Below are positions 2,972-31,972 of a stretch of 64,000 bases of DNA, one piece after another. The notes below the pieces were generated by a model. The model was not told the origin of the DNA and searched no databases. It saw nothing but the letters and a program-made list of their open reading frames with translations. The stretch lies in NCBI RefSeq assembly GCF_020524545.1, contig NZ_JAIVLG010000002.1, forward strand, positions 310,001 through 374,000, given 5' to 3'. Origin of the DNA: Microbacterium paraoxydans. GTDB taxonomy: Bacteria; Actinomycetota; Actinomycetes; Actinomycetales; Microbacteriaceae. The position numbers were made by a program, and so were the translations under genes. Each line of letters begins with the position of its first letter. Positions within the stretch are counted from its first letter, which is position 1.

Positions 2972-3089
2972 GGGGGATGATCCACCTCTCTGGATGCACT
3001 CCGGAAGCTCCGAGGAGATGGATAGATGCACATATCACATAATTCGAGATTTGTACATGGGGAGAACTACCCACCGCCGTTCCACATAG

Positions 3090-3116: not shown

Positions 3117-3167
3117 TGACCTTTGGCCGCGTTATGAGGCGTGGCGATCACTGGGGAAAAGGGGATC

Positions 3168-3650: not shown

Positions 3651-3663
3651 CCGGAAGGGGATC

Positions 3664-5073: not shown

Positions 5074-5086
5074 TCGAAGGAGCATC

Positions 5087-5968
5087 ATGATCTCTCGAGT
5101 GACATCCTCGGCCATGACGCAGACGGCCATGCGGCAGTTGCAATCCAACCTCTCCGAGCTCGCACGTCTGCAGGAACAGGCCACCTCGCAGCGTGCCTTC
5201 GCCGCGCCGTCCGACGATCCGGCTGCAGCTGCCACCGCCCTCGCGCTGCACGCGGAGCAGCGGCGAAACGAGCAGTACGCGCGCAACATCGACGACGGAC
5301 TCGCCTGGGTCACGGCGGCGGACGGCGCGATCACCGCGAGCACTTCGTTGCTGGGGAGGGTCCGCGACCTGACCGCGCAGGGAGCGAACGACGGCGCGCT
5401 CGACGCGACGGCCAAGGAAGCGCTGGCCGTGGAACTCGAAGGCATCCGCGAGGAGCTGTTCGCACAGGCCAACACCCGCCTGCTCGGACGCTCGGTGTTC
5501 GCCGGGACGTCGGACACGGCGGCGTTCGCCGCCGATTACACCCACAGCGGAGTGGCTGGCGCGGAGGTGACCCGGCGGGTCTCCGACGGTGCCTCGGTCC
5601 GCGTCGACACCGATGGCGCTGCCGTCTTCGGCACCGGCGGCGACTCGGTGTTCGCGCTGGTGGACGAGATCGTCGCCGATCTCCGCTCCGGCGTCAACGT
5701 CGGCCCTCGGCTTGCGGAGATCGATGCTCGGCGCACGGCCATGCTCGGCGTCCAGGGGTCGGTGGGAACCCGTCAATCTCAGATCGAACGCGCCAAGGAG
5801 GCGGCAGTGCAGAATTCCGTGTCCCTCGAGTCCCGCCGCACGGCGGTCGAGGACGTCGATTCGATCGAAGTGCTCGTGCGCCTCCAGGCGCAGGAGCTCG
5901 TATATCGCTCCGCACTCGCGGTGAACGCGCGGGTGCTCCAGCCGTCGCTCATGGACTTCCTCCGATGA
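5087..5968 (+). CDS. flgL: Flagellar hook-associated protein 3 FlgL
   Basis: FlgL is the second junction protein and is related to flagellin. The 293-residue product starts MISRVTSSAMTQTAMRQLQS and shows the flagellin-like N-terminal block (residues 35-50, APSDDPAAAATALAL) and VRDLTAQGANDG, and a C-terminal helix containing VRLQAQELVYRSALAVNAR. GAAGGAG precedes the ATG. It overlaps fliW by four bases (ATGA). Confidence 0.93.
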   Translation: MISRVTSSAMTQTAMRQLQSNLSELARLQEQATSQRAFAAPSDDPAAAATALALHAEQRRNEQYARNIDDGLAWVTAADGAITASTSLLGRVRDLTAQGANDGALDATAKEALAVELEGIREELFAQANTRLLGRSVFAGTSDTAAFAADYTHSGVAGAEVTRRVSDGASVRVDTDGAAVFGTGGDSVFALVDEIVADLRSGVNVGPRLAEIDARRTAMLGVQGSVGTRQSQIERAKEAAVQNSVSLESRRTAVEDVDSIEVLVRLQAQELVYRSALAVNARVLQPSLMDFLR

Positions 5969-6336
5969 CCGCGGCGCTCACCTTCCTCGCCCCGCCTCCC
6001 GGACTCGCCCCTCACGTCGAGTTCGCCCTGGCCCCGGTCGACGGTGCCGACGGGCTGTTCGCGATGCGTGCCGTGGAGGACGCGGAGCTGCGGCTCTACC
6101 TCGTCGATCCGCGGACGGTGCTGAGCGAGTACGCGCCGATCCTGACGGACGAGCAGGCCGATGCACTCGCTCTCCGCGAAGCCGAAGACGCCTTGATCCT
6201 CGTGGTCGCCCACCCGTCGGCGGAGGGCGTGAGCGTGAACCTGCTCGCGCCGGTGATCGTCAACCGCACGACGGGGGCCGCGTCGCAGGTGATCCTCGAG
6301 GACCAGGACTACCCGTTGCGCGCGCCCCTGGGCTGA
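5965..6336 (+). CDS. fliW: Flagellar assembly factor FliW
   Basis: FliW is a small cytoplasmic protein that binds flagellin and, in species with CsrA, blocks that RNA-binding repressor so that flagellin synthesis matches export. The 123-residue protein has the FliW-type features: a core with DGLFAMRAVEDAELRLYLVDP and the terminal segment NLLAPVIVNRTTGAASQVIL, which resembles the conserved NLxAPIxxN motif. It is coupled to flgL by an ATGA overlap and ends the operon. No csrA follows it: the next gene is tsaB, 59 bases later. Confidence 0.92.
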   Translation: MTAALTFLAPPPGLAPHVEFALAPVDGADGLFAMRAVEDAELRLYLVDPRTVLSEYAPILTDEQADALALREAEDALILVVAHPSAEGVSVNLLAPVIVNRTTGAASQVILEDQDYPLRAPLG

Positions 6337-6383
6337 GCCGTGTTCCCTGCCGGTCCAGGCCGTTTTCCCAGCGGAACCACGGC

Positions 6384-6389
6384 TAATCT
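6384..6389 (+). promoter_or_regulatory. -10 box for a leaderless tsaB transcript
   Basis: TAATCT ends exactly six bases before the GTG start of tsaB, which places transcription start at or next to the start codon. The same spacing recurs at several other genes in the window. Confidence 0.6.
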
Positions 6390-6395
6390 GGAAGG

Positions 6396-7013
6396 GTGAT
6401 CCTCGCCGTCGACACCTCCCTGGGCACCGCCGTGTCCCTCATCGATGCCGACGGGGCCCGGCTCGCCGAGGCGAGTGCAGCGGACCCGCTCGGCCATGCC
6501 GAGATCATCGGCGACCTGCTGGTCGAGGTGCTCGGACAGGGCGGAGCCGGAGCGGTGACTCACGTCGTCGCAGGCATGGGACCCGGACCGTTCACCGGAC
6601 TGCGGATCGGCATCGCCGCGGCACGAGCCTTCGCGCTCGGGCGCGGCATCCCCGTGATCCCGGTGCCCAGCCATTTCGCGGCCGCGCTCACCGCGACCGA
6701 GACCGAGACGGGGCCGTTCGCCGTCGTCACCGATGCGCGCCGACGCGAGGTCGCGATCACGGTCTTCGATGGGATCGACGCCGACGGGATCCCGCACGTC
6801 GTCGCCGAGACGGTCCTGGTGCGCGCGGCGGACGCCGACGCACACCTCGACGGCATCCGACGCATCGACGTCGCGACGCTCTCCGCGCGGGACCTCGCCC
6901 GTGTGGGGGCTCGCGCACTGGCCGCCGGCCGCACGCTGACGGACGATGAGCCGCTCTACCTGCGGAACCCGGACGTGACGCTGCCAGGCGCTCCGAAGAA
7001 GGTGGGGACGTGA
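6396..7013 (+). CDS. tsaB: tRNA threonylcarbamoyladenosine biosynthesis protein TsaB
   Basis: TsaB is the partner and scaffold of TsaD in making N6-threonylcarbamoyladenosine at position 37 of ANN-reading tRNAs. The 205-residue protein has an ASKHA-fold start (ILAVDTSLGTAVSLID) and the family motif GMGPGPFTGLRIGIAAARAF around residues 60-80. It lacks the metal-binding histidines seen in TsaD, as expected for TsaB. GTG start. It overlaps rimI by four bases and heads a coupled run tsaB-rimI-tsaD, the usual arrangement in actinobacteria. Confidence 0.95.
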   Translation: MILAVDTSLGTAVSLIDADGARLAEASAADPLGHAEIIGDLLVEVLGQGGAGAVTHVVAGMGPGPFTGLRIGIAAARAFALGRGIPVIPVPSHFAAALTATETETGPFAVVTDARRREVAITVFDGIDADGIPHVVAETVLVRAADADAHLDGIRRIDVATLSARDLARVGARALAAGRTLTDDEPLYLRNPDVTLPGAPKKVGT

Positions 7014-7498
7014 CCCTCCGCGATGCCGTGTCCGAAGACCTCGACGCGATCATGATGATCGAGAACCGCTCCTTCCCGACCGATGCCTGGAGCCGGGAGA
7101 CCATGGCGTCCGAGCTCGCCGGCCCGCACGGCCGGTACCTGGTCGACGAGCACGAGGGCCGTGTGATCGGATACGGCGGAGTGCGTGCCCTGCGCGGGAG
7201 CGCCGATGCCGACATCCAGACGATCGCTTTGCTCAGCGAGTACCGAGGCCAGGGCCGCGGCCGGGCCCTCCTTCGTGCGCTGCTCGCCACCGCTGCGCAA
7301 CGCGGTGCCCGCGAGGTGTTCCTCGAGGTCAGGGCCGACAATCCGGCGGCGGAGGGCCTGTATCTCGCCGAAGGGTTCGCGGAGATCGGCCGCCGTCCCC
7401 GCTACTATCAGCCGGATGATGTGGACGCGATCGTGATGCGCCTGGAGCTGCGCCGCCACCCGGTGACACGGGACGGGTCCGAGGAGGCCACGGCATGA
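7010..7498 (+). CDS. rimI: Ribosomal protein S18-alanine N-acetyltransferase RimI (GNAT family)
   Basis: A 162-residue GNAT acetyltransferase expected to acetylate the N-terminus of ribosomal protein S18 or similar targets. Visible features: RimI-like [20 protein letters not shown] near residue 17, the acetyl-CoA loop [14 protein letters not shown] near residues 80-90, and the C-terminal [23 protein letters not shown] start within the tsaB stop (GTGA), and its own stop overlaps the tsaD start (ATGA). The position between tsaB and tsaD is the main argument for RimI rather than another GNAT enzyme. Confidence 0.9.
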
Positions 7499-8562
7499 GC
7501 GAGCCTCTGGTCCTCGGCATCGAGACGAGCTGCGACGAGACGGGTATCGGGATCGTCCGCGGGCGCACCCTGCTGTCGAACACGATCGCGTCGAGCATGG
7601 ACGAGCACGCCCGTTACGGCGGCGTCGTGCCCGAGGTCGCGGCCAGGGCGCATCTGGAGGCACTGCAACCGGCCATCGATGCGGCGCTCGCCGAAGCGGG
7701 GGTGGGTCTCGACGAGCTCGACGCGGTCGCCGTCACGAGCGGACCCGGACTCGCGGGCGCCCTGATGGTGGGAGTGGGGGCGGCGAAGGGTCTCGCCGTC
7801 TCGCTCGACAAGCCGTTGTACGCCGTCAATCATCTCGTCGGCCACATCGCCGCCGACATCCTCACCGGCGGTTCCGCGCCGCTCGAGTATCCGACGGTCG
7901 CCCTGCTGGTGTCCGGTGGCCACACGTCGCTCCTGCACGTGCGCGACCTCACGACGGATGTCGAGCTGCTCGGCGAGACCATGGACGACGCCGCAGGCGA
8001 AGCGTTCGACAAAGTCGCCCGGCTCCTCTCTCTGCCCTACCCGGGCGGACCCGAGATCGACCGCGCGGCGGTCGACGGCGATCCGGACGCCATCCGCTTC
8101 CCCCGTGGCCTCTCGCGCGCCTCCGACCTGGCGAAGCATCGCTATGACTTCTCGTTCTCCGGTCTGAAGACGGCCGTGGCCCGCTGGGTGGAGCGCTGCG
8201 AGGCGGACGGCGTCGAGGTACCGGTGGCAGACGTGGCCGCGAGCTTCCGCGAAGCCGTCGTCGATGTGCTCGTGACCAAGGCGCTCGCCGCCTGCGCAGA
8301 CCTCGGGGTGCCGCGACTGCTCCTCGGGGGCGGGGTGATCGCGAACCGGCGCCTGCGCGAGGTCGCGCTCCGGCGCGCTGCCGACGCAGGCGTCACCGTG
8401 CGGATCCCACCCCTCTCGCTGTGCACCGACAACGGCGCCATGATCGCGGCACTCGCCGCAGAGCTGATCTCCTCCGGGCGTCGGCCGTCGCGCCTGACGT
8501 TCGGCGCGGACTCGACGCTTCCCGTGACCGAGATCCAGATCGCGGAGGGGGCGTCGGCATGA
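7495..8562 (+). CDS. tsaD: tRNA N6-adenosine threonylcarbamoyltransferase TsaD
   Basis: TsaD transfers the threonylcarbamoyl group from its adenylate to A37 of tRNA; it is essential in most bacteria and works with TsaB and TsaE. The 355-residue product is normal length. It shows [15 protein letters not shown] at the N-terminus, the metal-binding segment [20 protein letters not shown] with the HxxxH-type histidines (residues about 37-57), [11 protein letters not shown], and the C-terminal glycine-rich [12 protein letters not shown] and [10 protein letters not shown] motifs. It overlaps rimI and the next membrane-protein gene by four bases each. Confidence 0.96.
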
Positions 8563-9047
8563 GCGACACGTCGGGCCCTGCCGAGGCGAAGGCCGCACCC
8601 ACCCCGCCGACGCGCATCGAGAGCCCGAGCGAGGAAGTCGAGCAGCATCCGGCTGCGGCCGCGCGGCTTCCCGGCGCTCGCCGGGAGGGGTACGCCAAGT
8701 TCCCGACCGGTCCCGTCGGTATCGAACCCGTGGTCGTGAGCGGTCCCGACATCGACGCACGAGACGACGTGGAGTGGGAGCCGTCGACCGACGCCGCGCC
8801 TATCGACGACACGCGACTCGCCCCGTGGGCGCTGCTGGCGGCGATCGTCGCGCTCGGAGCCTCCTTCTTCGTCGGCTGGGGGATCCCGGTCGCGATCGTC
8901 GCGGTCATCGCCGCGGCCATGTCGCTGCGTCGCCCCGTGGAAAGCCGCGCGATCGCGCGGTGGGCGCTCGTGCTGGGGCTCTGCGCGACCGTCTACAGCC
9001 TGGGCTGGCTGGTCTGGGCGGGCATGCAGTTCGAGCGGCTCGGGTGA
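8559..9047 (+). CDS. Hypothetical membrane protein, DUF4190-like
   Basis: A 162-residue protein of unknown function. Residues 1-85 are charged, proline- and alanine-rich and probably disordered; the C-terminal half holds two hydrophobic stretches (about 88-123, possibly a hairpin, and about 134-156), so it is an inner-membrane protein with a cytoplasmic N-terminal tail. The hydrophobic layout resembles the DUF4190 type, which is only a similarity of shape. The ATG overlaps the tsaD stop (ATGA), so it is translated with the t6A genes, but nothing links it functionally to them. Confidence 0.75.
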
Positions 9048-9051
9048 TCGG

Positions 9052-10155
9052 GTGCTCGACGCCGAGGAGTCGGAGGAGCTGCGCTCCCTGCACGCACGGG
9101 CCTACGGGCGCGATGCCGCACTGACGGACGCTGAGGCGACACGACTGCGCGAACTCGAGGACCGCCGACGGGTCCCGGCCGTCGAGCCCGAGCACGTCGA
9201 GGAACCCGTGCAGGTCGAGGAGGGGGAGGTCCTCGAGCCGTCGACGAGTGACCGCGTGGACGATTCCCCGTCGGAGATGCGCGTCCTGGCGGCCGGGACC
9301 GAGCCGACCGCGGAGGCATCGGCATCGGCGGGATCATCGCTGCGGTCGTTGCTCGCTGTGGCGCGGTCGCACTGGCGACCGGTCGCACTCGCCACCGTGG
9401 CGGTGCTCCTGATCGGATTGGGGGCGGGGTGGCTCGCCTTCGGCCGCGCCGACAGCGCACCGGTCGCGCTGACCCCCGAGCAGCAGCAATGGGAAGATGA
9501 CCTCGTCGCCGGCGGCGACTACGACCCCGGCTCGATCCGCGCGCTCGGGGTGGAGCAGGGAGCGGTCATCTGGACCGCGACCAAGGACGGCCGGGAGCGC
9601 ACCTGCCTGATCCTGAGCACGGGCGATGTGACCCTGCCGAACTGCAACGAGACGGAATCCGTCACGGCGGAAGGGATCTACGGCTCGATCACGGTGCGGA
9701 CCGACGAAGATCTGCAGAGGCAGGTCAGCGCCCAGATGCTCTTCACCGCGTCGGGTGAGCCTGCGGTCGCGGTGAGCTCCTACGACTACGACTCGCTGCA
9801 GACCGGGATCACGTATGCGAATGAGAAGGAGTCGCAGACCGCCGACCGGCTGGTGCGCGAGGGGTACGACATGCATTCCCTCTGGGTCGTCGGCTACGAC
9901 GGAGACGTTCCGCTCTGGACGGCCGTGCAGCGCGACTCGCAGAGCTCCTGCCTGATCTACGACGGATCCACGGATGATTCCCCGGAGGCGTGCCTCGATC
10001 CCGAGACGATGCAGGAGCAGGGGTCGAGTCTCGTCCTCAACCGCGTCGACCCCGACTCCGGTGCCGTCACGCACTTCGAGCTGGCCTCGAGCACGGGGCC
10101 CGGCTACCTCGTCATCACCCGCGAAAGGGATGCCACCGGTGCAGCCGAGGACTGA
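9052..10155 (+). CDS. Membrane-anchored protein of unknown family, first of two tandem paralogues
   Basis: A 367-residue protein with no family I recognise. The cytoplasmic N-terminus has the motif EELRSLHARAYGRDAALT followed by an acidic, disordered stretch; one transmembrane helix lies near residues 105-128 (ALATVAVLLIGLGAGWLAFG); the rest should be extracellular. That part contains two similar repeats, each with the pattern W-T-A-x(6-8)-C-L-I then a second cysteine 12-15 residues later, suggesting disulfides. GTG start. The next gene repeats the whole layout at lower identity. It lies four bases after the preceding membrane-protein gene. Confidence 0.75.
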   Translation: MLDAEESEELRSLHARAYGRDAALTDAEATRLRELEDRRRVPAVEPEHVEEPVQVEEGEVLEPSTSDRVDDSPSEMRVLAAGTEPTAEASASAGSSLRSLLAVARSHWRPVALATVAVLLIGLGAGWLAFGRADSAPVALTPEQQQWEDDLVAGGDYDPGSIRALGVEQGAVIWTATKDGRERTCLILSTGDVTLPNCNETESVTAEGIYGSITVRTDEDLQRQVSAQMLFTASGEPAVAVSSYDYDSLQTGITYANEKESQTADRLVREGYDMHSLWVVGYDGDVPLWTAVQRDSQSSCLIYDGSTDDSPEACLDPETMQEQGSSLVLNRVDPDSGAVTHFELASSTGPGYLVITRERDATGAAED

Positions 10156-19802: not shown

Positions 19803-21398
<1,596 letters not shown>

Positions 21399-21860: not shown

Positions 21861-22005
21861 GTGGTGTCCTGTCTCTGGGGGTACGAGGAACATGCCCGGT
21901 GGCTCCGGACGCCCCGAGCGTAGCGAGGCGTCGATGTTCGCGCCATCCCCTCGCCGGTGGCAGCGGAGGGCGTCATGCCTCTTCCGCCGTTCGATGGAGG
22001 GGGCG

Positions 22006-22011
22006 TAGCGT
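22006..22011 (+). promoter_or_regulatory. -10 box for a leaderless DUF2277 transcript
   Basis: TAGCGT ends six bases before the ATG at 22018. Confidence 0.55.
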
Positions 22012-22017
22012 GCGGGT

Positions 22018-22332
22018 ATGTGCCGAAACATCGTCCCGCTGAACAACCTCGAGCCTGCCGCGACCGACGACGAATGCCACGACGCAGCCCTGCAGTTCGT
22101 CCGCAAGATCGCCGGAACGACGGCGCCGTCCCGCGCCAATCGAGCCGTGTTCGATCGTGCCGTCGCTGAGATCGCGCAGGCGACCAGGGTGCTCCTGGAC
22201 GAGCTCGTCACCACGGCGCCGCCGAAGAATCGCGACGAGGAGGCGGCCAAGCGCCGTGCCCGGTCCGCAGAGCGCTACGAGGCGATCCGGGTCTATCAGC
22301 AGGAGAAGCGCGCAGCCCGTGCGGCCTCGTGA
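22018..22332 (+). CDS. DUF2277 domain-containing protein
   Basis: A 104-residue cytoplasmic protein. It opens with the diagnostic MCRNI of DUF2277 and continues NNLEPAATDDECHDAALQFV, RKIAGTTAPSRANRAVFDRAV and TRVLLDELVTTAPP; the last third is a basic helix rich in arginine and alanine. The family is widespread in actinobacteria and proteobacteria, has no assigned function, and keeps the cysteine and the aromatic-acidic pattern seen here. Probably leaderless. Not coupled to the seven-gene block that follows 143 bases later. Confidence 0.88.
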   Translation: MCRNIVPLNNLEPAATDDECHDAALQFVRKIAGTTAPSRANRAVFDRAVAEIAQATRVLLDELVTTAPPKNRDEEAAKRRARSAERYEAIRVYQQEKRAARAAS

Positions 22333-22428
22333 ACGCGAAGCCGCAGGGAACACCGTCGCGTATGCCAGAATCGACATGCCCCGCTCGACTTTCCCGGCGG
22401 TTCCGGTGATGAAGGCACCGAGATCGCA

Positions 22429-22446
22429 GACCGATCCCCATCGGTC
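22429..22446 (+). repeat. Small inverted repeat in the leader of the seven-gene block
   Basis: GACCGAT, four C residues, ATCGGTC: a perfect 7-base inverted repeat 30 bases before the first start codon. It could be an operator or a leader hairpin; no regulator is known. Confidence 0.4.
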
Positions 22447-22475
22447 AGGGAACTTCCCCAAGGAGAGCTGTATCC

Positions 22476-23519
22476 ATGCCTGAGGTTTCTCCTCGTGTTC
22501 TCGTCGTCGATGACGATCCGGACGTCGCCCTGCTCGTCAAGACCGTCCTCGAGCGACGGGCGGGCTGCACCGTCGACGTCGCGGAAGACGGCCAGGCGGC
22601 CGTCGAACGTGTCAGAGCGCAGCGCCCGGATGTCGTCGTCACCGACATCGAGATGCCGGGGCTGAGCGGGCTCGAGCTGCTGGCCGAGCTCCGCCGCACG
22701 GTCCCCACCGTGCCGGTGTTGGTGATGACGGCTCACGTCTCCGTCGAGTACGCGGTCTCCGCGCTGCGCGCGCAGGCGGACGAGTTCCTGACGAAACCGC
22801 TCGACAACGTCAAGCTGGTCGAGTCCGTCACCCGGCTGATCGAGGAGGGGCGTCGGCGCCGGGAGGATGCACGTCTACCGGAACGGGTGCTCGCGATCGG
22901 CGCGCACCCCGACGATGTCGAGATCGGCGTCGGTGGACTCCTGGCCGCGCACGCCAGGGCAGGGGATGAGATCACCATTCTCACCCTCTCCCGCGGCGCC
23001 AGAGGCGGTGACGCCGACAGCCGACAGAACGAGTCACTGGCGGCAGCCGAGATGCTCGGTGCCCGGCTCTTCCTCAAGGACCTCGTCGACACGGAGATCT
23101 CGGGCGGAGGTTCGACGGTGCGTCTCATCGAAGAGGTGGTCCGGGAGATCGAGCCCACGATCGTCTACACGCACTCCGGTCACGACCGGCACCAGGACCA
23201 CCGAGCCGTGAGCGAGGCCACGATCGTGGCCACTCGGCGTGTCGGCACGGTCGCCTGCTATCAGAGCCCGTCGTCGACGATCGACTTCCGCCCGACCCGG
23301 TTCGTGCGGATCGATCAGTACCTGGACGAGAAGCTCCGGCTGTTGGAGAGCTTCCACTCGCAGACCGCGAGTCGGGACTACCTCGAACCCGAGTTCGTCA
23401 CGGCCACCGCACGATACTGGTCGCGGTTCGGGGGCGGAACGGCCGTCGAACCGCTCGAGGTGGTGCGTGAGACGGCGGAGTTCATCGGAGCCCACGAACT
23501 CAGCCGACGGGAGAGCTGA
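22476..23519 (+). CDS. Response-regulator receiver fused to a PIG-L (LmbE-like) de-N-acetylase
   Basis: A 347-residue two-domain protein. Residues 1-125 are a complete receiver: acidic pair D12-D13, phospho-acceptor Asp57 (VVVTDIEMPG), Thr85 (VLVMTAH) and Lys107 (EFLTKPLD). Residues 137-345 are a PIG-L/LmbE zinc hydrolase with AHPDDVEIG (143-151) and the second metal/catalytic site HDRHQDH (237-243). PIG-L enzymes remove N-acetyl groups from GlcNAc-type sugars such as GlcNAc-inositol; here phosphorylation presumably controls the enzyme instead of DNA binding. First gene of a seven-gene coupled block; AAGGAG upstream; its stop overlaps the ATP-grasp start (TGATG). The exact substrate is unknown. 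Confidence 0.88.
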   Translation: MPEVSPRVLVVDDDPDVALLVKTVLERRAGCTVDVAEDGQAAVERVRAQRPDVVVTDIEMPGLSGLELLAELRRTVPTVPVLVMTAHVSVEYAVSALRAQADEFLTKPLDNVKLVESVTRLIEEGRRRREDARLPERVLAIGAHPDDVEIGVGGLLAAHARAGDEITILTLSRGARGGDADSRQNESLAAAEMLGARLFLKDLVDTEISGGGSTVRLIEEVVREIEPTIVYTHSGHDRHQDHRAVSEATIVATRRVGTVACYQSPSSTIDFRPTRFVRIDQYLDEKLRLLESFHSQTASRDYLEPEFVTATARYWSRFGGGTAVEPLEVVRETAEFIGAHELSRRES

Positions 23520-24508
23520 TGACCACGCGCGTACTGGTGACCGGCGCAGGAGGACCGGCCGGTGTGGCCGTGATCCGATCCCTGCTCCGCCGCCCGGACC
23601 TGACCGTTTTCGCCGCCGACATGGACGGCTGGGCGAGCGGCATCTATCTGGTACCGGCCGAGCAGCGTCGTCTCGTCCCGCCCGGCCGCGATGACGACTT
23701 CGTGCCGGCCATCGCCCGCATGGTTGCGGAAGATGATCTCGATCTCGTGATCTCGACCGTCGATGTCGAGCTCATCGCCCTCGCCCAGCGGCGGCACGAA
23801 TTGGCCCCGGCCGTGCTCGCCGCTCCCTCGGCGGACACGCTGAACACGGCGCTCGACAAGCTGCTCCTCGCGCAGCGCTGCGCGCCCACCGGACTCACTC
23901 CGCGCACGGTTCTCGCCGGTCCCGACGCGCTGGCGGTCGACTGGGAGTACCCGGTCTTCGCCAAGCCCCGGCAGGGAGCGGGGAGCCGTGGCGTGCGCCT
24001 GGTTCCCGACCGTGCCGCACTCGAGGCGCTCCCGATCGACGAGGCTCTCATCGTGCAGGACTTCCTCCCGGGGGAGGAGTACTCGGTCGATGTGATCGCG
24101 GATGCCGCGGGCACCGTCGTCGCCGCGGTGCCGCGTACACGCGCGCGGGTGGACTCCGGTGTCGCCATCGCGGGGCGGACGGTGCTCGACCCCGAACTCG
24201 AAGAGGCTGCGGCGGCGATCGCGCGGGCGATCGGTCTCGTCGGGGTCGCCAACGTGCAGCTGCGCCGCGACCGCGACGGCCGCGCCGTGCTGCTCGAGGT
24301 CAACCCGCGATTCCCCGGGGCGCTGCCGTTGACGATCGCCGCGGGCGTCGACATCCCGTCGCTCGTCGCCGACCTCTTCCTCGGCCGGGAGCTGCCCGTT
24401 CGGGTGCCGTTCCGCGAGGTCGCATCCGTGCGGTTCCTGGAAGACGTGATCGTCGAGGTCGATGATGTGCTGGTCTCCGACCATGCGGGGCACCAGGAGG
24501 AGCTGTGA
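23519..24508 (+). CDS. ATP-grasp enzyme, carbamoyl-phosphate-synthase-like
   Basis: A 329-residue enzyme. The N-terminal pre-ATP-grasp domain has a Rossmann start (VLVTGAGGPAGVAVIRSLL) and DDLDLVISTVDVELIAL. The ATP-grasp fold shows the nucleotide lysine segment VFAKPRQGAGSRGVRLV, the EEYSVDVIAD motif and the metal-binding LLEVNPRFPGALPLTIAAG. Such enzymes join a carboxylate to an amine or thiol through an acyl-phosphate; CarB-like single-domain forms often sit in surface-sugar and antibiotic clusters. Which acid and amine are used is not visible. Overlaps its neighbours by one and four bases. Confidence 0.85.
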   Translation: MTTRVLVTGAGGPAGVAVIRSLLRRPDLTVFAADMDGWASGIYLVPAEQRRLVPPGRDDDFVPAIARMVAEDDLDLVISTVDVELIALAQRRHELAPAVLAAPSADTLNTALDKLLLAQRCAPTGLTPRTVLAGPDALAVDWEYPVFAKPRQGAGSRGVRLVPDRAALEALPIDEALIVQDFLPGEEYSVDVIADAAGTVVAAVPRTRARVDSGVAIAGRTVLDPELEEAAAAIARAIGLVGVANVQLRRDRDGRAVLLEVNPRFPGALPLTIAAGVDIPSLVADLFLGRELPVRVPFREVASVRFLEDVIVEVDDVLVSDHAGHQEEL

Positions 24509-25221
24509 GCCTCATCGAGCTCCGGGGCGACCACCACGTCCACTCGACGTTCTCGGACGACGCCGTCTCCACGCTCGCGGAGAACGTGGCGGCGGCCGCG
24601 GCGGTGGGCTTGACCACCATCCGCCTGGTCGACCATGTGCGTCGCTCCACCAGCTGGGTGCCGGACTACCTCGCGGCCGTTCGCGCCTTGGAGGTACCGG
24701 ACGGGCTGACCGTGCTCACCGGCGTCGAGGCGAAGATCCTCGACGCCGCGGGCGAACTCGACATCCCCGCGCTTCCCGAGGGGATCGACCGGATCCTCAT
24801 CGCCGACCACCAGTTCCCCGGCACTGACGGCCCGCTCGGGCCGTCAGCGGTGACGGAGCGGATGGCTGCGGGCTGGGCGGCTGCGGATGTGCTCGATCAG
24901 CTCGTGGAATCCCTCGTGGCGACCATGCGCCGATACCCGGGCAACCAACTCGCGCACTGCTTCTCCATCCTCCCGAAGATCGGTCTCTCAGAAGACGATC
25001 TCGGAGCGGAGCGCGTCGACGCGTGGGCGCGCGCGGCGGCCGACACCGACACGCTCGTCGAGGTCAACGAGAAGTGGGGTTGCCCCGGCGTCCCCGCACT
25101 CCTGGCGCTGCGGCGCGCGGGAGGCACGATCGTGGCCTCCACAGACAGTCACGTGGCGTCGGACGTCGGTCGCTACGAGAGGGTGATCCCGCTGCTCGAC
25201 GCGGTGGAGGTCTCAGGATGA
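24505..25221 (+). CDS. PHP-domain phosphoesterase
   Basis: A 238-residue PHP (polymerase and histidinol phosphatase) protein. Metal ligands are visible in DHHVHSTFSDDA (about residues 9-20), the histidine of LVDHVRR, the glutamate in LTGVEAKILDA, AHCFSILP and the C-terminal ASTDSHVASDVGRYERV. Family members are metal-dependent phosphoesterases, including histidinol phosphatase and YcdX-type enzymes; the substrate here is unknown and probably a phosphorylated intermediate of the pathway encoded around it. GTG start overlapping the ATP-grasp stop; its stop overlaps the glycosyltransferase ATG. Confidence 0.85.
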   Translation: MSLIELRGDHHVHSTFSDDAVSTLAENVAAAAAVGLTTIRLVDHVRRSTSWVPDYLAAVRALEVPDGLTVLTGVEAKILDAAGELDIPALPEGIDRILIADHQFPGTDGPLGPSAVTERMAAGWAAADVLDQLVESLVATMRRYPGNQLAHCFSILPKIGLSEDDLGAERVDAWARAAADTDTLVEVNEKWGCPGVPALLALRRAGGTIVASTDSHVASDVGRYERVIPLLDAVEVSG

Positions 25222-26705
25222 CCGATCTGACCTGGCTGCAGACGATCGTCGTGATCGTCCTCCTGCTCTGCGTGCTGGTCGGAACGCTCCCGGTGGTCAA
25301 CACCGGGCTGCAGTTCCTGGTGCTGCCGCTGCACGCCTTCCGAAACCACTACGACAAGGCGGCTCCGTACCACCCGAACATCGCGGTGATCATCCCGGCA
25401 TGGAACGAGGGGCTCGTCATCGGAGCCGCGATCGAGCGGCTGCTCCAGCTGGAGTACCCCGGCGAGCGATTGAGGGTCTTCGTCGTCGATGACGCATCCA
25501 CGGACGACACTCCCGCGATCGTCGCCGCGAAGGCCGCGGCCCATCCCGGACGCGTCGTGCATCTGCGACGCGAGCAGGGCGGTCAGGGAAAGGCGCACAC
25601 CCTCAATCACGGTCTCGACGTCGCGCTCGCGGACGAGTGGACCGAGGCCGTGCTGATCATGGATGCGGACGTGATCTTCGCCCGCGACTCGCTGCGCAAG
25701 CTCAGCAGGCATCTCGCGGATGAGAAGGTCGGTGCGGTCACCGCCTACATCGCCGAAGGCAGCCGCGACCGCAATTACCTCACGCGTTTCATCGCGATCG
25801 AGTACGTGATCGGTCAGCTCTCGGCCCGTCGGGTACAGAACGTCGGAGGCGCGATCGCCTGCCTGGCCGGCGGCGCGCAGCTGCACTCGCGGGCCAACCT
25901 CGAGGCGATCGGCGGACGGATCCCGACCGGTACGCTGGCCGAAGACACCATGACCACCTTCGAGAGCCAGCTCAAGGGCCGGAGGATGGTCTTCGAGCCG
26001 CATGCCGTCGTGCTCGCCGAGGAGCCGCGGACGATCGACAGTCTGTGGAAGCAACGGCTGCGGTGGGCGCGTGGCAACGTGCAGCTCACCTCGATCTACA
26101 AGAAGCTCTGGTTCCGCCCGAGCCGCGAGCACAATCTCGGCAGTTTCGGGTTCGGGCTCGCGTGGTTCACGATCCTGCTGCTTCCGGCGTTCATGATCCT
26201 GGCAGCGGCAGGCATGCTCGCACTGCTCCTCCTGCACAGCGACATCGCCGAGTTCGTGTTCCGCTTCATGTGGATCTCGGCGGCCTGCATCTACCTGTTC
26301 TCGATCCTGTACTCCGTGCAGCTCGATCCACGCACCGGCAGACATTCCTGGCGCGAGGCGATCATGTTCCCCGGACTCGGTGCCCTGCTGCTGATGGCCA
26401 TCGCCCTGTTCCCGTGGCTGTTCCTGGAGCTGCTGCAGGTGCTCGGCCAGAGCGCCACCCCGCAGACGCTGTTCACCTGGGCGGTGATCTTCTATCTGTG
26501 GGGGCCGATCTCCATGCTGGGGATCTGGCTCGCCCGCGCCGTGGAGCCCCTTCCCGCGGGCCGGTTCTTCGCCGGTCTGCTGCTCTACGTCTGCGGCTAC
26601 GGATCCCTGCTCTGCGCCATCACCGTGGATTCGTACATCAAAGAATGGCGTCGCGCCGACGCCTCCTGGATCAAGACCGAGAAGATCGGACGTGTGGACT
26701 CATGA
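25218..26705 (+). CDS. Membrane family-2 glycosyltransferase, processive type
   Basis: A 495-residue membrane enzyme. One helix (about residues 7-30) precedes a cytoplasmic GT-A domain with IAVIIPAWNEGLVIGAAIER, the nucleotide aspartates VVDDASTDDTP and IMDADV, the base motif GTLAEDTMT and Q279-x-x-R-W (QRLRW). This D, D, ED, Q-x-x-RW set is typical of processive synthases such as cellulose, hyaluronan and poly-GlcNAc synthases. Five or so helices follow (about 310-480) that could form a channel. It may therefore build and extrude a polysaccharide, possibly the substrate of the deacetylase three genes upstream. ATGA overlap with the PHP gene. Confidence 0.88.
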   Translation: MTDLTWLQTIVVIVLLLCVLVGTLPVVNTGLQFLVLPLHAFRNHYDKAAPYHPNIAVIIPAWNEGLVIGAAIERLLQLEYPGERLRVFVVDDASTDDTPAIVAAKAAAHPGRVVHLRREQGGQGKAHTLNHGLDVALADEWTEAVLIMDADVIFARDSLRKLSRHLADEKVGAVTAYIAEGSRDRNYLTRFIAIEYVIGQLSARRVQNVGGAIACLAGGAQLHSRANLEAIGGRIPTGTLAEDTMTTFESQLKGRRMVFEPHAVVLAEEPRTIDSLWKQRLRWARGNVQLTSIYKKLWFRPSREHNLGSFGFGLAWFTILLLPAFMILAAAGMLALLLLHSDIAEFVFRFMWISAACIYLFSILYSVQLDPRTGRHSWREAIMFPGLGALLLMAIALFPWLFLELLQVLGQSATPQTLFTWAVIFYLWGPISMLGIWLARAVEPLPAGRFFAGLLLYVCGYGSLLCAITVDSYIKEWRRADASWIKTEKIGRVDS

Positions 26706-26845
26706 CCGCAGCACCGTCACGCGACACCGAAGCGGAGGAGATCGCCGCGGATGCCCGCCGCGAGCGGCGACTGGTCCCGCAGGCGATCCTCTCCCTCCTC
26801 GTCGTCGTCGCCGTCGTCATCGTGCGAGAGCTGTTCCTTCGATGA
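26702..26845 (+). CDS. 47-residue single-helix membrane peptide
   Basis: A small ORF between the glycosyltransferase and the receiver gene, coupled to both by ATGA overlaps. The first 25 residues are charged (DTEAEEIAADARRERRLV); the rest is one transmembrane helix (AILSLLVVVAVVIVRELFLR). Too small to classify. Its tight coupling on both sides and a single helix suggest an accessory subunit of the glycosyltransferase or the kinase; this is inference. Confidence 0.65.
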   Translation: MTAAPSRDTEAEEIAADARRERRLVPQAILSLLVVVAVVIVRELFLR

Positions 26846-27189
26846 CCGGGAGGCCGCTGGCCCTCGTCGTGGAGGACGCCCCCGATCAGGTCGCATTGCT
26901 GCGCCGCTACCTCGACCGCGAGGGCTTCGACGTGTTCGTCGCCCGCGACGCCGAGTCGGCGATCGCCGCGTTCGACGAGATCGATCCCGTCCTGGCGGTG
27001 CTCGATCTGCTCCTGCCCGGGATCTCGGGACAGGAGTGCGCGCGTCTCGTCCAGGACCGCTTCCCCCGCTGCTTCCTCGTGATCAGCTCCGTGCTCGACG
27101 CGGCGGACTACCCGCCGGCGGATGCCGCCCTGCCGAAGCCCATCACGGGTGCCGACCTGCACGCCATCGTCGAGCGGGTCGAGCGATGA
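26842..27189 (+). CDS. Stand-alone response-regulator receiver
   Basis: A 115-residue single-domain receiver without an output domain. It has the acidic pair E11-D12, the expected phospho-acceptor Asp55 (AVLDLLLPG), serines at the switch position (VISS, 82-83) and Lys99 (LPKP). The central GISGQECARLVQ and short C-terminus match CheY/Spo0F-like proteins. It is coupled to the histidine kinase gene, its probable phospho-donor, and may relay phosphate to the receiver-deacetylase or compete with it. Confidence 0.85.
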   Translation: MTGRPLALVVEDAPDQVALLRRYLDREGFDVFVARDAESAIAAFDEIDPVLAVLDLLLPGISGQECARLVQDRFPRCFLVISSVLDAADYPPADAALPKPITGADLHAIVERVER

Positions 27190-28991
27190 GGGCGACGCCG
27201 CTCGACCGCGCGGAGAACCGGTGGTACCGGATCTTCGACAACCCGAGCCCGTTGCTCAAGCAGGCGCCGACGGTGATCGCGACCGTCGTCGCTGGGCTGC
27301 TCACCTGGTGGGTACCGGACTTGCCGGTCACCCATGTCGCGTCGGCCGTGGGGGGTGTCGCCCTGGTTCTCGGGGCGACGGTCCTCGCCGGGGTGCTCAC
27401 GGCGCGGGGGATGTACGACGGATGGGCCGTGCTGCTCATCCCGATCCTCGACATCGTCGGTCTCGGCCTCTTCCGCACCGGCACCGGCGGCCCTGGCGCT
27501 CTCTTCTCCGCTCTCATCCTGCTCCCCGTCGTCTGGTTGGCGGCGGCTCCCGGCATCCGCTGGGTCTTCGTGGTCGCGGGACTCACCTGCGTCGCGCTGC
27601 TGATGCCGTACCTCACCGATCCGCCTCACACCTCGACGGAGTGGCTCCGCGGCGTGGTGGCGCCCCTGGTGTTCGCCGCCGTCGCAGCGGTCATCAACCA
27701 GCTCGCCCGACAGCAGCGTCTGCGCATCGAGCAGGCGGAGGAGCTGGTGGCGGAGCGCACCAAGGCGCTCTCGGAGAACGTCGCGATGATCGTGCAGCTG
27801 CGGGACAAGGAGCGCCAGTATCGCGAGCTCCTGGATTCGTTCGAGAGCGTCTGGTCGTCCATCACCGCGCAGGCCGTGATCGCGACGACACGCGCGGGCA
27901 TCGTGACGGCGTGGAACCCCGGGGCCGAGCGTCTGCTGGGGCTCTCGACCAGCGAAGCGCTCCGAGACGTGCGAGTCGACCGGTTCTTCCCCGCGACGGT
28001 CCTGTCGATGCTGGCGGCCGAGCACGCCGACCGGCTGCCGGCGGCAGGTGACGGTGCGTCGGCGTACGGAGAGATCTCCCCGGGGATCCAGGCGTTGTTC
28101 GCGCAGGCCGATGCCGGGCTCCCGGTCGACGGCGACGTCGAGGTGAGGACTGCCGGGGGAACGACGGTGCCCGCCCGCGTGACCGTGAGTCCCCACAAGG
28201 ACGGCGCAGGTGCGCAGCAGGGATACCTGTTCGTGCTCACCGACGAGACCAGGGCGGTCGAGGTCGCCCGCATGAAGGACGAGTTCGTCGGCATGATCTC
28301 GCACGAGCTGCGCACGCCGCTCAGCGCGATCATCGGCTTCCTCGATCTGCTCCAGAACGACCCCGGCCAGCCGCTCACCAGTGACCAGCAGGAGTTCGTC
28401 TCCATCATCGAGCGCAACGCGCAGCGCCTGCTCAACCTCGTCGGCGACCTCCTCTTCACCGCGCAGGTGGAATCCGGTCGGTTCCCGCTCGATCGCGCGG
28501 ACGCGGACGTCGCCGAGCTGGTCCGCTCGGCTGTGGCGTCGGCCGGCCCGCTCGCGCAGCGCGCAGGTATCGAGCTCTATGCCGAGGTCGGCCCCGACCC
28601 GGTCCGCCTCGTGGTCGACGCCGGAAGGATCGGGCAGGCGCTCGACAATCTCCTCTCCAACGCCATCAAGTTCACGCCCAGCGGTGGCAGGGTCACGGCG
28701 CGGGTGCGGGCGGTCGACGCAGGAGTGGAGCTCTCGGTCAGGGACACCGGGGTCGGGATCCCCGAGAACGAGCAGGGGATGCTGTTCACCCGTTTCTTCC
28801 GCGCATCGACCGCGACACGCAACGCGGTACCCGGGGTCGGGCTCGGGCTCACGATCACGCGGGCCATCGTCCTGGCGCACGGCGGCACGATGGACGTCAC
28901 GAGTCAGGAGGGTGTCGGTACCGAGTTCCGCTTCGTCCTCCCCACCGCCCCTCGCACCGAAGTGCTCAAGACCCTGAGCCAGGTCGACTGA
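27186..28991 (+). CDS. Membrane PAS-domain hybrid-type sensor histidine kinase (no receiver)
   Basis: A 601-residue kinase. Five or six helices fill residues 27-180; a coiled coil (QQRLRIEQAEELVAERTKAL) leads into a PAS domain (about 215-360, with TRAGIVTAWNPGAERLLGLS). The HisKA box MISHELRTPLSAIIGF has phospho-His373; the ATPase domain shows the N box DNLLSNAIKFTP, DTGVGIPENEQG, FTRFFRAS and GVGLGLTITRAIV. The short membrane part has no large extracellular loop, so it may sense the membrane itself or an intracellular signal through PAS. Last of the seven coupled genes. Confidence 0.9.
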   Translation: MRATPLDRAENRWYRIFDNPSPLLKQAPTVIATVVAGLLTWWVPDLPVTHVASAVGGVALVLGATVLAGVLTARGMYDGWAVLLIPILDIVGLGLFRTGTGGPGALFSALILLPVVWLAAAPGIRWVFVVAGLTCVALLMPYLTDPPHTSTEWLRGVVAPLVFAAVAAVINQLARQQRLRIEQAEELVAERTKALSENVAMIVQLRDKERQYRELLDSFESVWSSITAQAVIATTRAGIVTAWNPGAERLLGLSTSEALRDVRVDRFFPATVLSMLAAEHADRLPAAGDGASAYGEISPGIQALFAQADAGLPVDGDVEVRTAGGTTVPARVTVSPHKDGAGAQQGYLFVLTDETRAVEVARMKDEFVGMISHELRTPLSAIIGFLDLLQNDPGQPLTSDQQEFVSIIERNAQRLLNLVGDLLFTAQVESGRFPLDRADADVAELVRSAVASAGPLAQRAGIELYAEVGPDPVRLVVDAGRIGQALDNLLSNAIKFTPSGGRVTARVRAVDAGVELSVRDTGVGIPENEQGMLFTRFFRASTATRNAVPGVGLGLTITRAIVLAHGGTMDVTSQEGVGTEFRFVLPTAPRTEVLKTLSQVD

Positions 28992-29084
28992 CCGCAGCGG
29001 CTGCATCGTCGCCGGGTTCGAGTCCCGCTTCCCTGATAGCCTGGTCGGCTCGGCACACGCGGGGCGGAAGGACGGACACGCACC

Positions 29085-30773
29085 GTGGGCTACATCGATG
29101 TCTCCGGAGTCTCATTGACACTCCCCGACGGCAGGCCGCTTCTCGACGAGGTGACGTTCCGCGTCGGGTCGGGTTCGACCAGCGCGCTCATCGGCCCGAA
29201 CGGCGCGGGCAAGACGACGCTGCTGCGCATCATCCGCGGGGATCAGCCGGCCGACGACGGGGTCGTGACGATCGAGGGCGGGCTGGGCGTCATGGACCAG
29301 TTCGTCGGCCACGGCGAAGCCGGGGAGACGGTCCACCAGCTGCTCGTGCGCGTCGCCCCCGTGCGCATCCGCACCGCGGCCGAGACGCTCGAAGCGGCGG
29401 AGAACGCACTGATCGACCGCGATGAGCATGACACGCAGATGGCATACGCGTCGGCGATCGCCGAGTACGCCGACGCCGGAGGGTATGAGCAGGAGACGGT
29501 CTGGGATCAGTGCACGATCGCGGCGCTCGGCTTACCGTTCGAGAGGGCGCGATTCCGTGACCTCACCACATTGTCCGGGGGTGAGCAGAAGCGGCTCGCA
29601 CTCGAGGCGCTGCTGCGAGGCCCCGACGAGGTGCTGCTGCTCGACGAACCGGACAATTACCTCGACGTGCCCACGAAGCGCTGGCTGGAGGAGCAACTGC
29701 GGCTCACCCCGAAGACCGTGCTGCTCGTGTCGCACGACCGGGAGCTTCTGGCACGTGCCGTCGATCGGTTGATCACGCTCGAGCCCGGTGGTGCGGGAGC
29801 CGCGGCCTGGGTGCACGGCGGCGGATTCGGGACCTATCAGCAGGCTCGGGCCGACCGGATGGATCGGCTCGACGAACTGCGTCGGCGCTGGGACGAGCAG
29901 CACGAGAAGCTGCGCACCCTCGTCGCGAACCTCAAGGTGAAGGCATCGGCGAACGACGGGTTCGCGTCGCGCTACCAGGCGGCGCAGACCCGACTTCGCA
30001 GGTTCGAAGAGGCCGGCCCTCCCGAGGAGCGTCCGCCCGCGCAGGACTTCGACATGCGCCTGCGCGGTGCGCGCACCGGCAAGCGCGCCGTGGTGGCTCA
30101 GCGCCTCGAGCTGACGGGGCTCATGCGGCCGTTCGAGGCGGAGATCTGGTACGGCGACCGCGTCGCCGTGCTCGGCTCGAACGGATCGGGCAAGTCGCAC
30201 TTCCTGCGGCTGCTCGCGCGCGGCGGCAGCGACCCCGACGCCACGCTCGGTCACGTCACCTCGACGGGGGAGCAGTTGAGCGCTGTCGCGCACACCGGTT
30301 CGGCGACGCTCGGCGCGAGAGTCGTTCCCGGTCTGTTCGCGCAGACGCATGCGCATCCGGAGTTCGTCGGGCGGACGCTCCTGGAGATCCTGCACCGGGG
30401 TGACGATCGCCGGGCGGGGATGCCCCGGGATGCCGCGAGTTCGGCCCTCGACCGCTACGGACTCGTACGGCAGGCTCAGCAGACCTTCGACTCGCTGTCG
30501 GGCGGGCAGCAGGCGCGGTTCCAGGTGCTGCTGCTCGAACTCTCCGGAGCGACGCTGCTGCTCCTGGACGAGCCGACCGACAACCTGGACCTGGAGTCCG
30601 CCGAGGCCTTGGAGTCGGCGCTGACGCGATTCGAGGGCACCGTGCTGGCCGTCACGCACGATCGATGGTTCGCGCGGTCGTTCGACCGGTTCCTGGTGTT
30701 CGGGTCGGGCGGCGACGTGTACGAGTCCGATGAGCCGGTCTGGGATGAGCGCCGCGTCGCCCGCGCGCGCTGA
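29085..30773 (+). CDS. ABC-F family ATP-binding protein
   Basis: A 562-residue protein with two ABC cassettes and no membrane segment, the ABC-F layout. Walker A motifs are GPNGAGKTT and GSNGSGKSH, signatures are LSGGEQKR and LSGGQQAR, and Walker B motifs end LLLDEPDNYLD and LLLDEPTDNLDLES. A charged linker (about 255-330, with KVKASANDGFASRYQAAQTR) joins them. ABC-F proteins act on ribosomes as translation factors or antibiotic-protection proteins; the subgroup is not clear from motifs alone. Start GTG at 29085 with GGAAGGA upstream. Single gene after the kinase. Confidence 0.88.
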   Translation: MGYIDVSGVSLTLPDGRPLLDEVTFRVGSGSTSALIGPNGAGKTTLLRIIRGDQPADDGVVTIEGGLGVMDQFVGHGEAGETVHQLLVRVAPVRIRTAAETLEAAENALIDRDEHDTQMAYASAIAEYADAGGYEQETVWDQCTIAALGLPFERARFRDLTTLSGGEQKRLALEALLRGPDEVLLLDEPDNYLDVPTKRWLEEQLRLTPKTVLLVSHDRELLARAVDRLITLEPGGAGAAAWVHGGGFGTYQQARADRMDRLDELRRRWDEQHEKLRTLVANLKVKASANDGFASRYQAAQTRLRRFEEAGPPEERPPAQDFDMRLRGARTGKRAVVAQRLELTGLMRPFEAEIWYGDRVAVLGSNGSGKSHFLRLLARGGSDPDATLGHVTSTGEQLSAVAHTGSATLGARVVPGLFAQTHAHPEFVGRTLLEILHRGDDRRAGMPRDAASSALDRYGLVRQAQQTFDSLSGGQQARFQVLLLELSGATLLLLDEPTDNLDLESAEALESALTRFEGTVLAVTHDRWFARSFDRFLVFGSGGDVYESDEPVWDERRVARAR

Positions 30774-30850: not shown

Positions 30851-31972
30851 GTGACCATGGAGATCGAGCTCGGCCGAGGAAAGCGCGCACGTCGCGCGTA
30901 CACGTTCGACGACATCGCGGTGGTGCCATCACGGCGCACGCGCAATCCGGAGGACGTGTCGACCGCATGGACGATCGACGCCTTCGGCTTCGACATCCCG
31001 GTGCTCGGGGCGCCGATGGACTCGGTCGTGAGCCCGCGGACGGCGATCATGCTCGGACAGCTCGGCGGCCTCGGCGTCCTCGATCTCGAGGGTCTGTGGA
31101 CGCGCTATGAGGACCCGGAGCCGCTGCTGGCGGAGATCGCCGGACTCGACCAGGGCGAGGCCACCGTCCGGATGCAGCAGCTGTACGCGGAGCCGATCAA
31201 GCCCGAGCTCATCACCCGTCGACTCGCCGAGATCCGTGAGTCCGGAGTCACGGTCGCCGGCTCCCTGACGCCGCAGCGCACGCAGGAGTACTACGACACG
31301 GTCGCCGCAGCGGGGGTCGATCTGTTCGTGATCCGCGGCACCACCGTGTCCGCCGAGCACGTCTCGAGCGTGGCGGAGCCCCTCAACCTCAAGAAGTTCA
31401 TCTACGATCTCGACGTCCCGGTGATCGTCGGTGGAGCGGCGACCTACACCGCGGCCCTTCACCTCATGCGCACCGGCGCGGCCGGTGTGCTCGTCGGCTT
31501 CGGCGGAGGGGCGGCGTCCACGACGCGTGCCACCCTCGGGATCCACGCGCCGATGGCGACCGCGGTCTCGGATGTCGCCGCTGCCCGCCGTGACTACCTC
31601 GATGAGTCCGGGGGCCGCTACGTCCACGTGATCGCCGATGGCGGCGTCGGCACCTCCGGTGACATCGTCAAGGCGCTCGCCATGGGCGCGGACGCGGTCA
31701 TGCTCGGGGTCGCGCTCGCTCGGGCCACGGATGCGCCCGGTCGCGGCTTCCACTGGGGTCCCGAAGCCCACCACTCGAAGCTGCCGCGAGGCCGCCGCGT
31801 CGAGGTCGGTGGAATCGGCACGCTCGAGGAGATCCTCTACGGCCCGGCCCCCGTCGCCGACGGCACCGCGAACCTCATCGGCGCGCTGCGCAAGTCGATG
31901 GCGACCACGGGGTACTCCGACCTCAAGGAGTTCCAGCGGGTCGAGGTCGTGCTCGCGCCGTACGAGGCCTGA
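30851..31972 (+). CDS. guaB3: GuaB3 family IMP dehydrogenase-related protein
   Basis: A 373-residue member of the IMPDH/GMP reductase family. It has the TIM-barrel motifs (AYTFDDIAVVPSRRT, VLGAPMDSVVSPRTA, IADGGVGTSGDIVKALAMGA, ADAVMLG) but no CBS domains. The loop that reads G-P-G-S-x-C-T-T-R in IMPDH is here VGFGGGAASTTRATLG, with Ser223 where the catalytic cysteine should be. GuaB3 from cyanobacteria is reported to be an IMP dehydrogenase, whereas the actinobacterial group has no known function. The missing cysteine argues against normal IMPDH chemistry. Probably leaderless; 16 bases before the SURF1 gene. Confidence 0.92.
   Translation: MTMEIELGRGKRARRAYTFDDIAVVPSRRTRNPEDVSTAWTIDAFGFDIPVLGAPMDSVVSPRTAIMLGQLGGLGVLDLEGLWTRYEDPEPLLAEIAGLDQGEATVRMQQLYAEPIKPELITRRLAEIRESGVTVAGSLTPQRTQEYYDTVAAAGVDLFVIRGTTVSAEHVSSVAEPLNLKKFIYDLDVPVIVGGAATYTAALHLMRTGAAGVLVGFGGGAASTTRATLGIHAPMATAVSDVAAARRDYLDESGGRYVHVIADGGVGTSGDIVKALAMGADAVMLGVALARATDAPGRGFHWGPEAHHSKLPRGRRVEVGGIGTLEEILYGPAPVADGTANLIGALRKSMATTGYSDLKEFQRVEVVLAPYEA

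Follow-up and report, generated by a model that had tools for sequence, protein, structure and literature searches.

What could a two-component system control when its genes overlap those of four predicted enzymes and none of the products carries a recognizable DNA-binding domain? This question is raised by a block of seven plus-strand open reading frames (ORFs; positions 22476-28991) of Microbacterium paraoxydans, located in the stretch of 64,000 nucleotides analysed here (the window; assembly GCF_020524545.1, contig NZ_JAIVLG010000002.1, positions 310,001 to 374,000) and belonging to a genome of 3.58 Mb in 17 contigs. In order, the block encodes a receiver-PIG-L fusion, an ATP-grasp protein, a PHP protein, a PgaC-like GT2 glycosyltransferase, a protein of 47 residues with one transmembrane segment, a free receiver and a membrane histidine kinase. 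We give a probability of roughly one half to the view that this operon makes an amino-sugar glycan under signal control, with phosphorylation gating an N-acetylglucosamine (GlcNAc) de-N-acetylase. A more specific proposal is advanced tentatively, namely that a single chemical step is the two-component output: receiver phosphorylation would gate the de-N-acetylase, and deacetylation would in turn commit the cell to an amino-sugar glycan of a new, amide-modified kind. This proposal takes in a four-enzyme core spread over several actinobacterial families, the ability of the receiver-enzyme to pair anew with another glycan operon, and a clade with no kinase nearby, where the receiver decayed and the enzymes were kept.

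Successive genes overlapped by 1, 4, 4, 4, 4 and 4 bases, as read from the sequence and then recomputed, the junction letters being TGATG (1 base), GTGA (4) and, at all four remaining junctions, ATGA (4). The initial annotation had described seven genes overlapping by one to four bases at this place, and both extent and overlaps were verified. Such overlaps are commonplace in operons and the block is presumably translated as a single unit. Pfam scanning assigned Response_reg and PIG-L to the first protein, ATPgrasp_Ter/ATP-grasp_3 to the second, PHP to the third, Glyco_tranf_2_3 to the fourth, nothing to the 47-residue protein, Response_reg to the sixth and HisKA, HATPase_c and PAS to the last. 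No DNA-binding domain was detected by Pfam in the seven proteins. The lack of a DNA-binding output, as originally noted, therefore holds for this block but not as a general rule, since at a related locus (L166) a gene read by eye as an OmpR-type DNA-binding regulator overlapped the neighbouring kinase gene.

The fusion (22476..23519, +) is 347 residues long and matched both PF00072 (113.7 bits) and PF02585 (87.8 bits, cut-off 28.2). Its receiver covers approximately residues 8-118 with Asp57, Thr85 and Lys107, so that acidic pocket, phosphoacceptor Asp and Lys are all present. The PIG-L/LmbE deacetylase domain starts near residue 137 and displays AHPDD at 143-147 as well as H239 and H242 in an HQDH motif; the AHPDD and HxxH residues presumably fulfil metal-binding and catalytic roles. 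The protein was devoid of hydrophobic segments as judged by hydropathy, and it was the sole PIG-L found in the host genome. Its structural model (predicted local distance difference test, pLDDT, 84.9; predicted template modelling score, pTM, 0.68) gave, as best PDB matches, BC1534, BshB and diacetylchitobiose deacetylases over one portion and receivers over the remainder. The nearest solved structures to the PIG-L part were 2ixd, 6p2t (BshB) and 8bgo, and no chain among the 50 listed spanned receiver and PIG-L together, judging by title and length.

Residue conservation was counted over 42 chosen loci, 40 of them with PIG-L and ATP-grasp together and two with a relocated Leifsonia GT2. The count excluded loci where fusion and kinase stood alone, as well as L016, L026, L054, L178 and various close duplicates from Microbacterium. 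The PIG-L site (H144, D146, D147, H239, H242) was intact in 40 of 40 loci. Column 57 of the receiver was Asp in 35 of these, Glu in one (L152) and unaligned in four, owing to a partial hit (L052), to alignments beginning only at residues 66-69 (L153, L154) and to a receiver-less protein (L177).

Two further arrangements were recorded around this type of protein. At L054 (4894-5973), outside the 40-locus set, a receiver-PIG-L fusion adjoined genes read as CheA, CheB and CheR, and its site residues were changed from AHPDD to THPGD and from HQDH to RLDH, with loss of D146 and H239; from its sequence it is a possible pseudo-enzyme. At L056-L058 (near 9000-10090), a closely related receiver (52-60% identical) was fused to a SpoIIE/PP2C phosphatase (by Pfam for L056, by eye for the others) and would thus combine the fusion's receiver type with a different predicted enzymatic output; in L056 and L058, this gene adjoined others read as STAS, HATPase and a cellulose-synthase-like GT2.

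The ATP-grasp ligase (23519..24508, +; 329 residues) is of the PRK12767/ATPgrasp_Ter type (PF15632, 110 bits, cut-off 29.1), and residues K149, E260, N262 and R264 were found in 40 of 40 loci. Its model (pLDDT 87.8) was nearest to 2pn1 (TMq 0.73), annotated as a carbamoyl-phosphate synthase large subunit, followed by PurK-type enzymes, biotin carboxylases, L-amino-acid ligases and PylC. None of the other six block proteins or of four flanking proteins, to which the scan extended, displayed a tellurium-resistance (Ter) match. The PHP-domain metal phosphoesterase (24505..25221, +; 238 residues, GTG start) scored 38.4 bits against PF02811 (cut-off 26.4); its nearest solved relative was YcdX (1m65, E 5.6e-10), it stayed below the cut-off of the YcdX-type family PRK09248 (59.2 versus 264), and nine putative metal-site residues were conserved in 39 of 39 loci. 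The membrane GT2 (25218..26705, +; 495 residues; PF13641, 110.1 bits) is of the PgaC/IcaA-NodC-cellulose synthase type, with about six hydrophobic segments by hydropathy. It displayed D92, DAD at 149-151, D243 and QRLRW at 279-283, which we take to be the family motifs D, DxD, D and QxxRW, the last one having already been pointed out in the initial annotation. D243, Q279, R282 and W283 occurred in 38 of 38 loci. Predicted active-site residues were thus invariant across the examined core loci.

The three remaining genes belong to signalling or lack an assignment. The 47-residue protein (26702..26845, +) combines a charged N-terminus with a hydropathy segment at 28-46 and matched no family in Pfam or NCBIfam; in each of the 25 loci where its alignment began at residue 1, its gene overlapped that of the GT2 by 4 bases. 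The free receiver (26842..27189, +; 115 residues; PF00072, 47 bits) contains E11, D12, D55 and K99, of which D55 and K99 were retained in 25 of 25 loci. The membrane histidine kinase (27186..28991, +; 601 residues; PF00512, PF02518) comprises a transmembrane sensor region with five or six hydrophobic segments (hydropathy), a PAS domain, HisKA with H373, and HATPase; H373 was present in all 33 loci covering this position. Small ORFs and free receivers that have diverged are overlooked by tblastn, and some were found only by eye (L047, and L017 for its small ORF). In a Leifsonia locus (L042, 14188-15018), a carbon-nitrogen hydrolase gene (Pfam) began at the final base of the kinase gene, and L047 had a similar ORF there.

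Co-occurrence was recorded as raw genome counts, uncorrected for kinship. Among 198 genomes of the genus, the fusion was found near full length in 34 (64-100% identity) and was absent from 164, and the GT2 (E <= 1e-80) occurred in 33, all among these 34. The remaining genome (G169) displayed a deletion remnant, in which the fusion runs into kinase fragments and no other block gene was found at the locus. The four enzymes, free receiver and kinase were together in 14 of 16 fetched loci, the exceptions being this remnant and one distant cousin. Partial receiver and kinase matches only were found in two stretches of G120 (L167, L181). At the level of the order (396 genomes), the fusion was matched at E <= 1e-60 in 25 genomes from 12 of 109 genera and four families, three of the 25 displaying a decayed receiver. 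The ATP-grasp was recorded at E <= 1e-70 in 20 genomes and adjoined the fusion on the same strand in every one. Weaker ATP-grasp matches (31-38% identity) appeared in four further genomes (G201, G212, G415, G429), those of G415 and G429 sitting among genes read as ordinary surface-polysaccharide genes. Across the phylum (396 genomes), three genomes matched at E <= 1e-50, own included; the other two, from other classes, displayed the four-enzyme order at 43-55% identity, and neither small ORF nor free receiver was matched at their loci. Named relatives bearing the block include Microbacterium, Leucobacter, Salinibacterium, Diaminobutyricibacter and Glaciihabitans. No plasmid-borne relative was detected at E <= 1e-30 in 72,556 plasmid records.

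Enzyme families and gene order were therefore co-conserved, with the GT2 in 33 of 34 fusion genomes of the genus and an adjoining ATP-grasp in 20 of 25 of the order. The seven genes did not form one invariant unit, contrary to their first description. Over 64 loci, a set that is partly redundant as the same genome could enter via two tools (e.g. L051 and L141), receiver-PIG-L, ATP-grasp, PHP and GT2 followed each other in fixed order on one strand in 51, and a kinase match occurred on the same strand in 55. The four enzymes are a stable core and the signalling genes are variable. Of the four enzymes, the GT2 alone was missing from three Leifsonia loci, and all three genomes kept a GT2 57-58% identical at another locus. 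At L177 (G201), the usual succession of four enzymes was found, headed by a PIG-L without receiver. The initial interpretation was supported in part: a glycan role is consistent with the GT2 family and with the contexts of relatives, and the seven-gene unit is corrected to a four-enzyme core with varying signalling genes.

One clade kept the enzymes but not an intact receiver. In L153 and L154, the fusion could be aligned only from residues 66-69 and Lys107 was missing; together with L152, they formed one starred clade in a quick tree. No kinase match was detected on either strand of the fetched L152-L154 stretches. The PIG-L site and the three other enzymes were intact there, indicating that enzyme sites persist while the receiver decayed, which may reflect a single event. 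The correlation between receiver decay and kinase absence is imperfect because L137 and L138 keep an intact receiver without kinase match.

Re-pairing of the fusion with a second operon was observed at two loci. At L026, a divergent operon encodes a PIG-L with N-terminal hydrophobic segments, an ATP-grasp, a GT2 and an exported putative hydrolase; the exported protein of this cousin operon had no NCBIfam match and a sub-threshold one to DUF4015 (E 0.054). At L149 and L151, a cousin-type operon composed of ATP-grasp, GT2 and exported putative hydrolase, without its own PIG-L, lay convergent with a pair of fusion and kinase genes; the fetched stretch contained no PIG-L match besides the fusion. 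Genome G577 harboured both this pairing (L151) and an ordinary four-enzyme block (L144) at separate loci. The cousin-paired fusions clustered together (support 97, starred) in the quick tree, the deep branches of which are weak. No other observation points as strongly as this re-pairing to a fusion deacetylase acting jointly with an ATP-grasp and a GT2. The cousin ATP-grasp (E <= 1e-40) was found in 0 of 396 phylum genomes, a search that is uninformative because this sample did not contain any positive genome.

From family membership and gene context, we infer the reactions, their order and the direction of control as follows. The membrane kinase would phosphorylate Asp57 of the PIG-L-fused receiver, which would alter the rate or the place of N-acetyl removal from a GlcNAc-type sugar, as expected for the PIG-L family. 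The ATP-grasp ligase might then join the freed amine, or a neighbouring carboxylate, by an amide-type bond, the PHP protein might strip phosphate from a donor or intermediate, and the membrane GT2, in keeping with its family, would transfer or polymerise the sugar. The free receiver probably competes for kinase phosphate or returns it, and the 47-residue membrane protein probably helps the kinase or the GT2. If this is true, the cell would switch chemistry itself rather than genes, i.e. it would have fast control of its surface chemistry without transcription, and the product may be an undescribed actinobacterial surface polymer. The natural series at hand (intact receiver with kinase; decayed receiver with no adjoining kinase; no receiver; fusion without the other enzymes) lets phosphorylation and each enzyme be tested comparatively.

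Several observations weigh against this scheme. The uncorrected kinship behind the co-occurrence counts is one. The ATP-grasp reached no NCBIfam cut-off among the matches listed (best 25 of 28 families), nor did the PHP protein in any of eight families out of eight, and the ATP-grasp fold neighbours span carboxylases and amino-acid ligases; the amide chemistry is therefore a guess. In genome G256, fusion, ATP-grasp and kinase were present but the locus yielded no PHP match, and the closest GT2 was only 34% identical. No ATP-grasp was detected at E <= 1e-10 in the fusion genomes G410, G482, G492 and G969 (Cellulomonas hominis), a Cellulomonas-type set, and no GT2 at E <= 1e-20 in G969. The fusion can therefore serve apart from the pathway, and it is chiefly the fusion genomes without ATP-grasp that speak against a strict pathway unit.

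The alternative that survives best, and which we still regard as unlikely, is an exopolysaccharide resembling poly-N-acetylglucosamine (PNAG), where the GT2 builds poly-GlcNAc, PIG-L deacetylates polymer or precursor, and the roles of ATP-grasp and PHP are confined to providing or recycling building blocks, with no amide decoration. The best NCBIfam match of the block GT2 was indeed PgaC/IcaA (TIGR03937), but with 122.5 bits for a cut-off of 422.3. The same family was closest to the GT2 of L178 (G212, 2879-9348; 117.4 bits), where PIG-L, GT2, exosortase (TIGR04178, 29.9 bits, cut-off 23), ATP-grasp, a gene read as uridine diphosphate (UDP)-GlcNAc 2-epimerase and a HAD hydrolase form one cluster, a possible exosortase-linked form of the block's pathway; no exosortase was found among the matches listed for the seven block proteins, to which that search was confined. 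Next to the GT2 comes a small membrane protein, in the manner of PgaD/IcaD. PNAG deacetylases, however, act outside the cytoplasm whereas the fusion has no hydrophobic segment, and mere building-block supply is a poor explanation for an ATP-grasp adjoining it in 20 of the order's 25 fusion genomes.

Rather improbable, in our opinion, is that the fusion chiefly deacetylates a common metabolite for signalling or housekeeping, with ATP-grasp, PHP and GT2 as frequent but separate neighbours. It would account for loci restricted to fusion and kinase (L051/L141, L140, L143) or to the fusion (L150), in genomes without ATP-grasp, and is in line with the chemotaxis-type neighbours and altered site of the L054 fusion. 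Against it stand the direct adjacency of ATP-grasp and fusion just mentioned, the pairing of a receiver-less PIG-L with the same three enzymes at L177, and the re-pairing with a second ATP-grasp/GT2 operon. In one of the loci restricted to fusion and kinase (L051, 11744-14769, Cellulomonas hominis), this pair was convergent with genes read as a hexapeptide acyltransferase and a UDP-GlcNAc 2-epimerase.

Very improbable is an alternative low-molecular-weight thiol or glycoside pathway. In its favour, a glycosyltransferase, a phosphatase, a PIG-L deacetylase and a ligase fit mycothiol/bacillithiol logic, the solved structures closest to the PIG-L include BshB-type proteins, no PIG-L other than the fusion was found in the host, and the best MshC match there is a sub-cut-off gene read as cysS. 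Against it, the GT2 is a membrane protein with processive-type motifs rather than of the GT4 type of MshA/BshA, the fusion is missing from 164 of 198 genus members, and it stayed below the BshB1 cut-off (TIGR04001, 90.9 versus 182.5 bits).

The signal-gated glycan operon remains our preferred interpretation, and it may be set beside known systems. Its PIG-L domain shares fold and the AHPDD and HQDH motifs with PIG-L/LmbE deacetylases (BshB, diacetylchitobiose deacetylase, LmbE-like proteins), from which it differs by the fused receiver. With the pga/ica systems for poly-GlcNAc it has in common a PgaC/IcaA-like GT2, a deacetylase and a small membrane protein; it departs from them by a GT2 far under the PgaC cut-off, by extra ATP-grasp, PHP and two-component genes and by a PIG-L without hydrophobic segment in place of an extracytoplasmic deacetylase. 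Mycothiol and bacillithiol syntheses share the succession of glycosyltransferase, PIG-L deacetylase and ligase, in contrast to a block whose glycosyltransferase is a membrane GT2 and whose host has no MshC over cut-off. A role in mycothiol synthesis was considered and found unsupported: the best MshC match of the genome (271.7 versus 485.1 bits) was read as cysS from its sequence and neighbours.

Response regulators with enzymatic output likewise place a receiver on a metabolic or glycan enzyme. By analogy, receivers of Methanobacteriaceae are fused to PF13641 (GT2) glycosyltransferases (PMC5847659, section 14), i.e. also to a glycan enzyme, the output being a GT2 instead of a de-N-acetylase in an operon with three other enzymes. 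According to PMC11800379, a Campylobacter jejuni ATP-grasp domain (in Cj1438) amidates glucuronate with a phosphorylated amine, after which Cj1435 strips the phosphate. This capsule amidation resembles the block in its ATP-grasp ligation followed by phosphate removal and in the adjoining GT2s of glycan synthesis; it differs by a TupA-like ATP-grasp domain fused to GT2 and by a uronate substrate, and the comparison is one of analogy, not of sequence. A literature search by family names yielded no description of the gene set or of a receiver-PIG-L fusion, in agreement with the initial annotation, which knew of no named pathway; an earlier mention may exist. Term searches within PMC4101496, PMC4558063 and PMC5847659 revealed neither in the text covered, and "response regulator", "receiver" and "fused" were absent as search terms from the searched text of the PIG-L superfamily review (PMC4101496). 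The block is apparently a response regulator with enzymatic output, a known kind, inside an undescribed glycan operon, and apparently a conserved actinobacterial gene set without a name.

Scanning of positions 21900-29200 revealed no promoter-like sites and three terminator-like hits, every one within the GT2 gene (shuffle mean 1.3, standard deviation 1.2). Upstream of the block lie guaB (IMP dehydrogenase, IMPDH; 19896..21398, +; PF00478, 527.1 bits) and a DUF2277 gene (22018..22332, +; PF10041, 120.3 bits), and downstream a gene for an ATPase that we read as ABC-F-type (29085..30773, +; two PF00005 stretches). The block was located between guaB and the ABC-F gene in 12 of 16 fetched genus loci. 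Among six block-less genomes searched, three displayed the ABC-F gene (E <= 1e-150), in all three with guaB within about 3 kb and the block absent; the gap was 690 bp in one of the block-less genomes (G021). At L038 (15597-15887), the DUF2277 gene was found downstream of the kinase instead of in its usual place ahead of the block. A second IMPDH-domain protein is encoded past the ABC-F gene, at 30851-31972 and about 9.5 kb downstream of guaB, so that the site of the block is bracketed by two IMPDH-type genes.

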